Assembly: GCA_013001575.1 (NCBI GenBank)
Contig: JABDMI010000034.1
Location: 1-32,715, forward strand
Length of the DNA: 32,715 nucleotides
Direction of reading: 5' to 3'
Source: Gammaproteobacteria bacterium
Lineage (GTDB): Bacteria > Pseudomonadota > Gammaproteobacteria > Steroidobacterales > JABDMI01
The notes under the pieces were generated by a model. That model did no database searches. It was not told where the DNA came from and saw nothing but the letters and a program-made list of their open reading frames with translations. Both the position numbers and the translations under genes were made by a program. The number at the start of each line of letters is the position of its first letter. The first letter of the stretch is position 1. This document shows, one piece after another, positions 2,258 to 24,869 of this stretch.

Positions 2258-2285
2258 TTGACACAGGAACAAAAGACGTTATGAT
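2258..2285 (+). promoter_or_regulatory. Sigma-70-type promoter for candidate sRNA
   Basis: A perfect -35 box TTGACA (2258-2263), a 16-bp spacer and a near-consensus -10 box TATGAT (2280-2285). No good open reading frame follows before the terminator at 2357-2387, so the expected product is a short untranslated RNA starting near 2292. Confidence 0.6.
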
Positions 2286-2291
2286 GCACTG

Positions 2292-2387
2292 CATCAATAT
2301 TTGGAAGCCAAGGTTTCCTTATTGACTCCTCCCTTATGAGTAATAACTCAACTTTTAGCCTCGACGAATTTGTCGAGGCTTTTTTTT
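2292..2387 (+). ncRNA. Candidate small regulatory RNA, about 96 nt
   Basis: No RNA family is recognised. The stretch lies between a consensus-like promoter and a strong intrinsic terminator. Three hairpins can be drawn. The first pairs TCAATA (2294-2299) with TATTGA (2320-2325) and, inside it, GGAA with TTCC. The second is TGAGT-AATA-ACTCA (2337-2350). The third is the terminator. Between hairpins one and two lies an unpaired pyrimidine run CTCCTCCCTT (2326-2335), complementary to a Shine-Dalgarno sequence, as in several sRNAs that block ribosome binding. The alternative is that this is only the 3' UTR of the peptidase gene, but the internal promoter argues against that being the whole story. 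Confidence 0.5.
2357..2387 (+). terminator. Rho-independent terminator
   Basis: Nine-base-pair perfect stem AGCCTCGAC / GTCGAGGCT with a GAATTT loop, followed by eight T residues on the + strand. The - strand side has no U-tract, so it acts rightward. It ends the candidate sRNA and any read-through from tatD and the peptidase gene, and separates them from the convergent GGDEF-EAL gene. Confidence 0.85.
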
Positions 2388-6096: not shown

Positions 6097-8193
6097 TTAA
6101 GCAGCAGGCTGCTCAACTTCTTTCATACTCAAACGTACACGACCCTGACGATCAACTTCGATCACTTTGACCTTAACCTGTTGGCCTTCCTTGACGTGGT
6201 CTGAGACTTTTTCAATACGCTCTTGTTTGATCTGTGAAATATGCACCAGGCCATCTTTACCCGGCAGGAAGCTGACAATGGCACCGAAGTCCATCAGACG
6301 CTCCACTTTGCCTTCGTAAACCTGACCGACTTCCGGCTCCATGACGATCTGCTCGATCAATTCACGCGCCTTATCGCCTTGGGTTTTGGACACAGCGGCA
6401 ATCTTGATCGTGCCGTCGTCTTCAATTTCAATGATTGCACCCGATTGCTCGGTCAGCGCACGGATGGTTGCACCACCTTTGCCGATCACGTCACGGATCT
6501 TGTCAACTTTAATTTTCATGGTTGAGATCGTCGGGGCGTAATCTGACATTTCTGCACGATGGGCTGGAAGTACCGCATTCATTTTTCCAAGAATGTGCAA
6601 GCGTGCATCAAGCGCCTGCTTGAGGGCCTGCTGCATGATCTCTTTGGTGATACCTTCAATCTTGATGTCCATTTGCAAAGCGGTAATACCTTCAGCGGTA
6701 CCGGCCACTTTAAAGTCCATGTCGCCAAGATGATCTTCGTCACCCAGAATATCGGTCAAGACAACATAATTGTTGCCGTCTTTAACCAGACCCATGGCCA
6801 CCCCGGCAACTGGCGCTTTAATTGGCACACCGGCATCCATCAAGGCCAATGACGTGCCACATACGCTGGCCATGGAACTTGAACCGTTGGATTCTGTGAT
6901 CTCGGAAACCACACGCAATACGTACGGGAATTCATCAAAGGATGGAATCACCGCCATCATGCCGCGTTTGGCTAATTTACCGTGACCAATTTCACGACGC
7001 TTGGGTCCACTCATGAATCCGGTTTCGTTCACACAGTAAGGAGGGAAGTTGTAATGCAACAAGAACTGGTCTTTGCTCTCGCCTTCAGGAGCGTCGATCA
7101 ACTGGGCATCGCGACTGGTACCCAAAGTGGCCAGTACGATTGCCTGGGTTTCACCACGGGTAAACAGGGCTGAACCGTGGGTGCGTGGTAAAACACCGAC
7201 TTGCACATCAATGGCACGTACGGTTTCCGAGTCACGCCCATCAATACGCGGCGCGCCACTGGCAACATTTTTACGCACAAAGGTTTTCTCGACCTTATCG
7301 GCTGCTTTACGCACCTCACTTTCGCTGGGTCCTTCTTCATCTTCTGAAACCAAAGCTTCGATTGCTTTGGCTTTTGCAGCACCCACCAAATCGTGCCTGG
7401 CCAGTTTGTCCATAGTCTGGTAAGCCTCGGCAATGTCAGCACCACAAGCCGCTTCAACTTTTGCGTACAGCTCGGTGTTTTCAGCTGGCGCTTCCCATTC
7501 CCAGCGTGGCTTACCCGCTTCGGCGGTTAATTCATTGATGGCATTGATCGCGGCTTGCATGGCTTCATGACCGTGCATAACCGCACCCAGCATTACATCT
7601 TCAGGAAGAATGTTGGCTTCCGACTCAACCATCAAAACCGCATCTTTGGTTCCGGCTACCACTAGATCCAGTTCAGAACTTTCTAACTGGGACTTGGTTG
7701 GGTTGACCAGGTATTGACCATTGTTATAGCCCACGCGTGCTGCACCAACCGGTCCGTTAAATGGCGAGCCGGTTAGAGACAGAGCTGCGGCTGATCCGAT
7801 CAATGCGAGTATGTCAGCATCAACTTCCGGATTCATGGACATTACTGTTGCCACAACTTGTACTTCATTTAAAAAGCCTTTCGGGAACAAAGGACGCAAA
7901 GGACGATCGATCAAACGCGAGGTCAGGGTCTCTTTTTCAGTTGGACGCCCTTCACGTTTAAAAAAGCCACCCGGGATACGACCGGCGGCATAAAATTTCT
8001 CTTGATAGTTAACCGTTAACGGGAAAAACCCTTGTCCAGGTTTGGCTTCCCTTTTAGCTACTGCTGTACACAATACAACCGTACCATCACAGCTAACGAT
8101 TACTGCACCATCAGCCTGACGGGCAACAATGCCGGTCTCGATGCTGATCTCATGTTGTCCCATCTGGAACGTTTTTCGACTTAAATTAAACAC
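6097..8193 (-). CDS. pnp: Polyribonucleotide nucleotidyltransferase (PNPase)
   Basis: Phosphorolytic 3'-5' exoribonuclease of the RNA degradosome, 698 aa, a usual length. Two RNase PH-like core domains (roughly 1-210 and 310-530, with DGRDSETVR at the start of the second and the catalytic [11 protein letters not shown] acidic motif), a KH domain ([21 protein letters not shown], about 560-615) and a C-terminal S1 domain ([25 protein letters not shown]). Translation starts at GTG, preceded by GAGGA at 9-nt spacing; the next ATG is too far inside the conserved N-terminus. The gene follows rpsO with a terminator and a leader hairpin between them, the layout in which E. coli PNPase represses its own mRNA after RNase III cleavage. 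Likely co-transcribed with rpsO by partial read-through. Confidence 0.98.
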
Positions 8194-14959: not shown

Positions 14960-15036
<77 letters not shown>

Positions 15037-22691: not shown

Positions 22692-24869
22692 TCAAACAAT
22701 GGCCTGTTTAAAAAATAAATTACCGGCTTCTTTTGCCGCGCGGGAATTTTGCAAGGGTGTTGCGCGTCGTACTAATGGATCAGTTGCATAAATTGGCATA
22801 TCCAGATAACTGTGTGATGCTTCCGGGGCGAGATTAATTTTGCTGTTAGCCGTAAATTTAGTACTCAGTTCGATCTCTCCCAGTTCAATTTTCAGGGCCT
22901 CGTATACTTCAGGAGCCGAAGCGAACTCAAATCCACCCAAATCAAATAAGTTACCCAGCACACGAAGTATTTTCCAACCCGGACGCGAATCGCCTACCGG
23001 TGAAGCGAAACCATTCACACTTTGCCATTTGCCTTCACAATTAACATATGTGCCGGCCGTTTCGGCATAACTGCTCAAAGGCAGCAAAACATCGGCATCC
23101 TTCTTCATCGCTTCGGTCACATAGGCGGTTACTGCAACAACCACATCCGCATCTTCCAGGGCCTTACGCAACTTATAGGGCCGCTGTACATCAGATTCCG
23201 GCTCGATTCCAAATAAGAGATAGGCTTTACGAGATTCTTCTGAAGTTTCCAGCACATTCAAGCCCGCATTGCTGATTGGACGACCACCAACATCCCGGTG
23301 CGGTAGAGCACCGGCCAGTTCGGCACCGACACTGTTGGCCGCTGGTGCTAAATACCCAAAGCTTGAAGAACTCAGTTGTGCAGCTAGGGCTGTAAGTCTG
23401 CGTAAACTGGCAAAATTGGCGTGACTAAGACCGAGCGAGCCGATAAACACATGAGCATTTTCGGCATCGATCAGGGCCTTGGCAATCTTTTCTTGTTCAG
23501 CATTAGGCGAGACACCTTCGAGTTCAACCAATTCTTTGCCGGTTAGTTTTTGTAAGGCAGAAACTACGCCGGCGACTTGATTAACCAGGTCAATCTCGTT
23601 GATTTGTGCATAAACATCAAAATAATAAAAATACGCTTCCGGATTGGCGAACATCACTTTTGCCCCGTTCAGACTCGCCTTACGCAAACGATGTGCAAGC
23701 AAAGGTGCTTCGGCGCGAACATTGGAACCCACCACAAAAATTACATTTTGCTGTTCCAGGTCTGCGATCGACGTACCCAGGGTCATGGCCAATGGATCAG
23801 CATGTTGATCACTGAAATCCTGACGCAATAAGCGATGATCAATATTGTTTGAACCCAAACCGCGGGTCAGACGGTTAAGCAAATATAATTCTTCCACTGT
23901 TGAACGTGGTGACGCCAAAGTAACTAACTGATCGCTCTCCTCAGCAACAATATCTTTTATTCTTTCTGCGGCAAATTCCAGGGCGCTTGACCAATCTACT
24001 TCTTGCCATTCACCGTTGCGTTTCAGCATAGGCGTTTGCAAGCGTTGCTCTGAATATATTCCGCTATAACTAAAACGATCCCGGTCTGACGCCCAGGTTT
24101 CATTAATGGCTTCATTGCTGCGTGGAACTACACGCAAAGCCTTGCCTCGACGTACATGTGCAAACAGATTGGTGCCCAGACTATCGTGTGGCGCGACCGT
24201 TTCGTGCTGGGTCATTTCCCAACCGCGCGCTTGAAAACGAAATGGTTTTGAGTTCAGCGCGCCAACCGGACACAGATCAATAATATTTCCTGACAATTCA
24301 TGGTCCACACTGTTCTCGATATAGGTACCAATTTCAGTGAACTCACCCCGACCAATAGTGCCCAACTCCTGGATCCCGGCTACCTCTTCACCAAAGCGAA
24401 CACAACGGGTGCAATGAATGCAACGCGTCATATCGGTTGATACCAAAGGACCCAGATTCTTGTCTTTTACCACACGCTTGCGCTCGGTGTATCTGGATTC
24501 GTCACCACCGTAACCAATTGCGACATCTTGCAATTCACACTCGCCGCCCTGATCGCAGATCGGGCAATCCAATGGGTGATTGATCAACAAAAATTCCATG
24601 GTGGCTTTTTGCGCCTTGATTGCATAAGGTGACCTGGTATTGAATTTCATACCATCCATTACCGGTGTTGCACACGCTGGCATTGGCTTACGTCCACCAA
24701 CTTGTTCTACCAGACACATACGGCAGTTAGCAGCAACCGAAAGCTTTTCGTGATAACAAAAACGCGGAATATGCACACCATTGCGATCAGCCACCTGGAT
24801 GAGCATTTCACCCTTGCTGGCCTCGACGGTTTTGCCATCCAGTTCAATTTTTATTGCGTTATCACTCAT
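22692..24869 (-). CDS. nuoG: NADH:quinone oxidoreductase subunit G
   Basis: Large iron-sulfur subunit of the peripheral arm, 725 aa. [2Fe-2S] N1b ligands Cys38/49/52/66; [4Fe-4S] N5 ligands His98, Cys102/105/111; [4Fe-4S] N4 ligands Cys150/153/156/200. These are followed by a molybdopterin-oxidoreductase-like domain (about 215-700) without catalytic function. The Cys motif for the extra N7 cluster of E. coli NuoG is absent (the stretch reads APHDSLGTNLFAHVRRG), so this is the mitochondrial-like form. The Shine-Dalgarno is weak; the gene starts 73 bp after nuoF, a gap that contains a duplicated nuoF tail. Confidence 0.97.
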   Translation of the reverse strand: MSDNAIKIELDGKTVEASKGEMLIQVADRNGVHIPRFCYHEKLSVAANCRMCLVEQVGGRKPMPACATPVMDGMKFNTRSPYAIKAQKATMEFLLINHPLDCPICDQGGECELQDVAIGYGGDESRYTERKRVVKDKNLGPLVSTDMTRCIHCTRCVRFGEEVAGIQELGTIGRGEFTEIGTYIENSVDHELSGNIIDLCPVGALNSKPFRFQARGWEMTQHETVAPHDSLGTNLFAHVRRGKALRVVPRSNEAINETWASDRDRFSYSGIYSEQRLQTPMLKRNGEWQEVDWSSALEFAAERIKDIVAEESDQLVTLASPRSTVEELYLLNRLTRGLGSNNIDHRLLRQDFSDQHADPLAMTLGTSIADLEQQNVIFVVGSNVRAEAPLLAHRLRKASLNGAKVMFANPEAYFYYFDVYAQINEIDLVNQVAGVVSALQKLTGKELVELEGVSPNAEQEKIAKALIDAENAHVFIGSLGLSHANFASLRRLTALAAQLSSSSFGYLAPAANSVGAELAGALPHRDVGGRPISNAGLNVLETSEESRKAYLLFGIEPESDVQRPYKLRKALEDADVVVAVTAYVTEAMKKDADVLLPLSSYAETAGTYVNCEGKWQSVNGFASPVGDSRPGWKILRVLGNLFDLGGFEFASAPEVYEALKIELGEIELSTKFTANSKINLAPEASHSYLDMPIYATDPLVRRATPLQNSRAAKEAGNLFFKQAIV

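Follow-up and report, generated by a model that had tools for sequence, protein, structure and literature searches.

Positions 2258-2387 of the window, by which we mean the whole 32,715-nt stretch of DNA analysed here, hold a real, conserved and unannotated small-RNA (sRNA) gene. Judged from sequence comparison, it is likely to stand alone and to belong to the regulon of PHA, a storage polyester, as a gene repressed by PhaR and induced by PHA that encodes an anti-Shine-Dalgarno (anti-SD) sRNA.

Elements of the sRNA gene

The gene and its surroundings comprise the following elements, with positions in the window:

2258-2263, plus strand: -35 element TTGACA (sequence; promoter scan)
2280-2285, plus strand: -10 element TATGAT (sequence; conservation in the genus)
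2279-2299, no strand: predicted PhaR operator TTATGATGCACTGCATCAATA (motif match, conservation, likeness to phasin promoters)
2285-2293: predicted operator core TGCACTGCA
2282-2296: predicted inverted arms of the operator, TGATGC/GCATCA
2292-2387, plus strand: sRNA transcript of about 96 nt (predicted 5' end at 2291-2293)
2294-2325, plus strand: hairpin 1, outer stem UCAAUA/UAUUGA, inner stem GGAAGC/GUUUCC
2326-2335, plus strand: unpaired anti-SD stretch, CTCCTCCCTT in DNA and CUCCUCCCUU in RNA (folding, conservation)
2337-2350, plus strand: hairpin 2, UGAGU/ACUCA (folding)
2357-2387, plus strand: intrinsic terminator, stem 2357-2380 (10 pairs by scan), eight T at 2380-2387
6097-8193, minus strand: pnp, the neighbour common to both families studied, convergent with the sRNA

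A first-pass annotation, made from this DNA alone, had proposed an unannotated sRNA here, and its promoter, two hairpins, open stretch and terminator are all present where it placed them. Of its terminator of 9 bp and eight Ts, the Ts are as given, and the scan finds 10 pairs in the stem, one more. The promoter, TTGACA-16-TATGAT, agrees with the consensus at 11 of 12 positions. Taken alone, neither the promoter-like matches in the region (2 vs 3.1 expected) nor the terminator-like ones (1 vs 1.9 expected) exceed chance. The fold of the 98-nt stretch, by comparison, has an energy of -31.9 kcal/mol vs -14.8 +/- 2.8 kcal/mol for shuffles (z = -6.1; 0 of 200), and the arrangement is retained in the two congeneric genomes. 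Ensemble folding gives every base of 2326-2335 an unpaired probability of 0.86-1.0, and the CTCCTCC within the conserved stretch is invariant across two families while the hairpins vary, which bears out the exposed anti-SD motif that had been claimed. The gene shows the general marks of a trans-acting anti-SD sRNA, namely its own promoter, a U-run terminator, an exposed conserved stretch and a place untied to a target.

As a whole, the interpretation of the first-pass annotation is partly supported. It contained no control element and no pathway, and the operator-like block at 2279-2299, which lies over the -10 and the start, is new. It had also held the position of the gene to be uninformative as to targets; a predicted PhaR operator in the promoter, and the adjacency to phaR seen in the second family, both point to a link with PHA storage.

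Conservation within the genus

The sRNA is present in one copy per genome in the window's own genome (G000) and in two further genomes of the genus, with identities of 75% (G002) and 73% (G001). In G002 its place shows up twice because contig ends overlap there by 141 bases. The first-pass annotation would have been refuted by a lack of conservation of the promoter and hairpins in relatives, but both are conserved: TTGA[CA]A and the 16-nt spacer are retained in G001 and G002, and all 25 of the 25 base pairs are intact in both, four of them changed on both sides. Only 3 of 500 shuffles kept the pairs as well, and slid controls were 39-44% paired. More specifically, hairpin 1 has one double-sided compensatory change and two one-sided changes, the terminator has three double-sided compensatory changes, and hairpin 2 is invariant. 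Coming from three sequences, these compensatory changes support rather than prove an RNA structure.

The longest invariant runs in the alignment are TATGATGCACTGCATCAATA and TTGACTCCTCCCTT. The most conserved block is TGATGCACTGCATCA, over the -10 and the start site, and the conserved 5' block comprises 20 invariant bases. This invariance extends well past the -10, and the promoter alone does not explain it.

Homologues in a second family

A covariance model (R1) built on the three genus sequences was run against 396 genomes from the order and matched G058 (E = 2.6e-6 per genome) and G026 (E = 0.0026). By DNA search, the sRNA was found in six of the seven genomes of a second family (f12). A second model (R2), built from six f12 sequences and none from the window's own family (f1), finds it in all seven f12 genomes and scores 41.8 bits on the window and 39.3 and 36.5 bits on its two relatives. 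The genome-wide run with R2 missed the window because the initial pass of that search scores only nine candidates per genome. We take the f1 and f12 sRNAs to be orthologous.

The f12 gene has the layout TTGAC, TAT..T, hairpin 1, CTCCTCCA, hairpin 2 and terminator; the TTGAC of the -35 is retained in six f12 genomes, and TAT..T stands for the -10. Hairpin 2 occupies the same place as in the genus with another sequence, GGUCGCUU/AAGCGUCC (GGUCG/CGACC in G058). The promoter is retained, and CUCCUCC is invariant, in all nine sequences aligned from the two families. In f12 the sRNA gene comes immediately after phaR, with an operator-like block at the corresponding spot and a second copy within hairpin 1. 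Because this palindrome is itself operator-like DNA, covarying changes within the f12 inner hairpin 1 were left out of the evidence for RNA structure. Furthermore, the sRNA and pnp converge in G000, in G002 and in each of the six f12 genomes inspected; the sRNA directly faces the pnp 3' end in f12, and other genes intervene in G000 and G002.

These comparisons are based on draft genomes, rough E-values from a short calibration and alignments of 3 to 9 sequences. Apart from G058 and G026, weak R1 and R2 matches in other families of the order consist mostly of terminator and composition, and were discarded. A match at G001:C117 235-338 is an artefact, being the terminator region read on the opposite strand. 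An exact 15-mer scan of named genomes gave 119 loci, mostly chance, and was too unspecific; the gammaproteobacterial loci checked from it had no R1 match.

Predicted PhaR operator and the PHA genes

The PhaR consensus in Bradyrhizobium, deduced from footprints, is TGCRNYGCASMA (PMC6201568), and the 21-mer motif in S. meliloti is WNWDDNYGCRNYGCRNHHWNW (PMC12542648). The conserved block at 2279-2299 is a near-perfect palindrome that has no mismatch to the S. meliloti motif and agrees with 11 of 12 positions of the Bradyrhizobium consensus. Each of the three genus genomes contains a single exact copy of the 15-mer TGATGCACTGCATCA, always at the sRNA. A loose match to the 21-mer, taken alone, is weak evidence: the own genome has 28 matches vs 14 for the reversed control. 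The case for the predicted PhaR control is instead built on where the site lies, on its conservation and on its likeness to the phasin promoter.

A second loose match in the window, at 24413-24433 inside an NADH dehydrogenase subunit gene (22692-24869), is probably due to chance. Between the nuo genes and a 154-aa ORF upstream of nusA, the window also contains a tRNA gene (14963-15036, minus strand).

PhaR is encoded in all three genus genomes (PF07879; in G000 also PF05233), and in G000, as in f12, phaR adjoins a gluQ-like gene. The own genome further holds a PHA cluster (L308; G000:C106 8192-12113) of phaC, a depolymerase-like hydrolase and phasin. The first two were named by reading their sequences, the PHA-synthase-like protein having 702 aa, and the phasin by Pfam (PF09361, 3.8e-10), its tail being rich in lysine and alanine. 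The phaC leader contains CGCACTGCA. The phasin promoter, TTGACG-17-TATTGTGCATCGCATCAA, has two PhaR-like sites, one overlapping the -35 and the other the -10. R2 also matched, unasked, a promoter from another order, that of a phasin gene adjoining phaR (L200; TATTGTGCATTGCATCAA), and the block has the same position in both phasin promoters. PhaR-controlled phasin promoters resemble the sRNA promoter in their -35, -10 and operator arrangement, TAT..TGCA..GCATCAA, and differ from it in driving a protein gene. The sRNA gene has what would be expected of the PhaR regulon: a PhaR encoded in the genome and a conserved predicted operator at the promoter, common to phasin.

Proposed mechanism and target searches

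In the mechanism that we propose, PhaR would occupy the predicted operator in the absence of PHA and block transcription; the overlap of this site with the -10 and start is consistent with repression. Once PHA granules form, they would bind PhaR away, and the RNA of about 96 nt would be made along with phasin. We infer this appearance on PHA accumulation from the biology of PhaR, which accumulated PHB sequesters, relieving phasin repression (PMC12542648). The exposed CUCCUCCCUU would pair with the Shine-Dalgarno regions of selected mRNAs and lower their translation, an action suggested by the exposed CUCCUCC and by sRNAs of like build. Hfq would probably be involved, on the U8 tail.

In the own genome, GGGAGGAG within 10 bases of an ATG is as rare as the control, so that an sRNA pairing along its whole open stretch would be selective. 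Among 50 start regions of this genome, with a median duplex energy of -5.05 kcal/mol, phasin reaches -7.2 and phaC -7.5 kcal/mol, a weak predicted pairing of the sRNA with the starts of its own PHA genes. The best duplexes were those of rpsA (-17.8 kcal/mol) and of infB in the window (-14.3 kcal/mol). The rpsA leader GAGGCGGAGTCAATCGG (L243, around 11905 of G000:C101), the best partner, also pairs with part of hairpin 1. As a conserved target, infB was rejected, with ranks of 45, 44, 22 and 10 in four f12 genomes. The seed scan, the 50 start regions and the infB comparison in those four genomes yielded no conserved target.

Alternative explanations

It is unlikely, in our judgement, that the gene encodes a trans-acting anti-SD sRNA free of PhaR control, with a conserved block that is no more than core promoter and start region, or that another factor binds. 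In favour of this reading, matches to the loose PhaR motif exceed the control by just 2-3 times, and most anti-SD sRNAs of the class that resemble RF02278 (Betaproteobacteria toxic sRNA) have other promoters. However, the invariant bases continue well beyond the -10 in palindromic form, the arrangement recurs in two phasin promoters, and the f12 gene follows phaR. We give a somewhat smaller chance to the RNA being a gammaproteobacterial homologue of alphaproteobacterial MmgR/suhB (RF00519) instead of an independent RNA with like wiring. Although such kinship would agree with the predicted PhaR control, with the similar layout (hairpin, exposed C/U-rich anti-SD stretch, terminator) and with an RF00519 hit that scores 21.3 bits in the window, the gathering score of that family is 41. 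No f1 or f12 member is listed for RF00519 at E <= 0.5; among 12 loci it appears once at E < 0.5, with 25.4 bits, in a separate RNA (L260), and the anti-hemB and RF02278 models fit equally well or better.

Two readings remain. In one, there is no separate sRNA: the M20 peptidase gene ends here in its 3' UTR and terminator, and the promoter-like sequence is due to chance. The gene does lie about 115 nt past the peptidase stop, on the same strand, and promoter-like matches are frequent by chance; but two genes, one on the opposite strand, lie between peptidase and sRNA in G001, which argues that the sRNA is not a peptidase 3' UTR and weakens the read-through that the first-pass annotation had weighed against its separate gene. 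As, moreover, the upstream gene in f12 is phaR and the promoter persists in all nine sequences, this reading is largely refuted and highly improbable. The slightest chance belongs to a short coding gene from ATGATG at 2281-2286 (MMHCINIWKPRFPY). Its frame is also open for some codons in G001 and G002, but it diverges between species after six codons, the -10 element contains its start codons, and the ATG is absent from f12. We retain the PhaR-repressed anti-SD sRNA as the preferred reading.

Related RNAs across the class

RF02278-like RNAs below the Rfam cut-off are present in 92 of the 339 genomes of the class at E <= 0.001, and the RF02278 family seems under-annotated. Many anti-SD double-hairpin RNAs (GACTCCTCCATCCTCCTTTGGTGG; L249-L278) lie slightly under the cut-off, and most of these loci share the promoter region TTGACA..ATATTAGA..ACATACTGATT. 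Upstream of the best 30 RF02278-like loci, YGCRNYGCR occurs at 5 vs 0.67 in first-order resampled sequence, a number reached in 1 of 300 runs; two of the five loci come from one genus, and the excess in sequence matches is suggestive only. PhaR-like sites accompany the promoters of RF02278-like RNAs at L260 and L265 (G481 and G604, of one genus) and L278 (G714), either on both sides of the promoter (TTGACGCAGCGCAACA...TTGTTGCGCYGCAACA/TTGTTGCGCTGCAGCA) or immediately past its -35 (TTGACATGTGCAGTGCAGCA). A further anti-SD RNA, L198 (G481:C38 1286-1376), has a hairpin GATGCTGCAACGCAGCATC that doubles as a PhaR-like palindrome, and possibly represents a third lineage of the arrangement of PhaR site and anti-SD RNA.

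A class-wide search for the operator followed by ACTCCTCC gave, beyond the gene's own site, mostly apparent chance matches inside genes. One candidate from it (L336, G575) was dropped, having no obvious terminator hairpin.

We put forward tentatively, and with some doubt, that PhaR with an anti-SD sRNA forms a recurrent storage-control circuit, newly arisen or retained with unrelated RNAs in Alpha- and Gammaproteobacteria, and that it includes some RF02278-type toxic sRNAs.

Comparison with known RNAs

In the Rfam covariance search no family reaches its cut-off, in keeping with the earlier failure to recognise an RNA family. RF02278 is among the best sub-threshold matches of members of the window sRNA family (25.0-30.7 bits), with 28.1 bits in the window vs a cut-off of 50. 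In RNAs of this type an exposed CU-rich stretch with complementarity to ribosome binding sites precedes a hairpin and a strong terminator (PMC5688073), an order that the window sRNA shares. In contrast, they are shorter (57-92 nt), with two hairpins and several copies per genome, whereas the window sRNA has a further hairpin at its 5' side, is single-copy and carries a predicted PhaR operator.

The anti-hemB/ncS04 family of Burkholderia (RF02837) scores 26.9 bits in the window (E = 1.5e-4 in a 261-base search; cut-off 49.5), mostly from the terminator and motif, and 31.6 bits on an f12 member. It has the CUCCUCCCU motif and a terminator in common with the window sRNA, but carries the motif in a hairpin loop, where the window sRNA has it single-stranded. 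PrrF (RF00444) reaches 28.2 bits vs 90, and the UCUCCUCAUCAGGCUAAUCAC core of that model is not matched as such.

The closest functional parallel is MmgR of S. meliloti, which has an exposed C/U-rich stretch between hairpins. This stand-alone, Hfq-dependent sRNA belongs to the PHB pathway, and PhaR (AniA) binds a palindrome of the mmgR promoter and represses it (PMC12542648, PMC8401924). There MmgR lowers phasin protein levels and PHA accumulation. By analogy, the window sRNA very probably works like this PhaR-repressed RNA: both have a PhaR palindrome in the promoter, that of the window being predicted, although the host of MmgR belongs to a different class and the window sRNA has no significant match to the RF00519 model.

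MmgR is the only sRNA wired to the PHA-granule sensor PhaR in the literature searched; a search for PhaR, sRNA, phasin and Gammaproteobacteria together, mostly outside subscription journals, returned none. The covariance models now supplied allow sRNAs of the window type to be annotated. If our reading is true, part of a large class of anti-SD sRNAs would gain a first function that can be tested. The window sRNA would also stand beside MmgR as a second PhaR-wired RNA, in Gammaproteobacteria and without recognisable sequence kinship to it, and carbon storage would be coupled to translation control in this way more than once.
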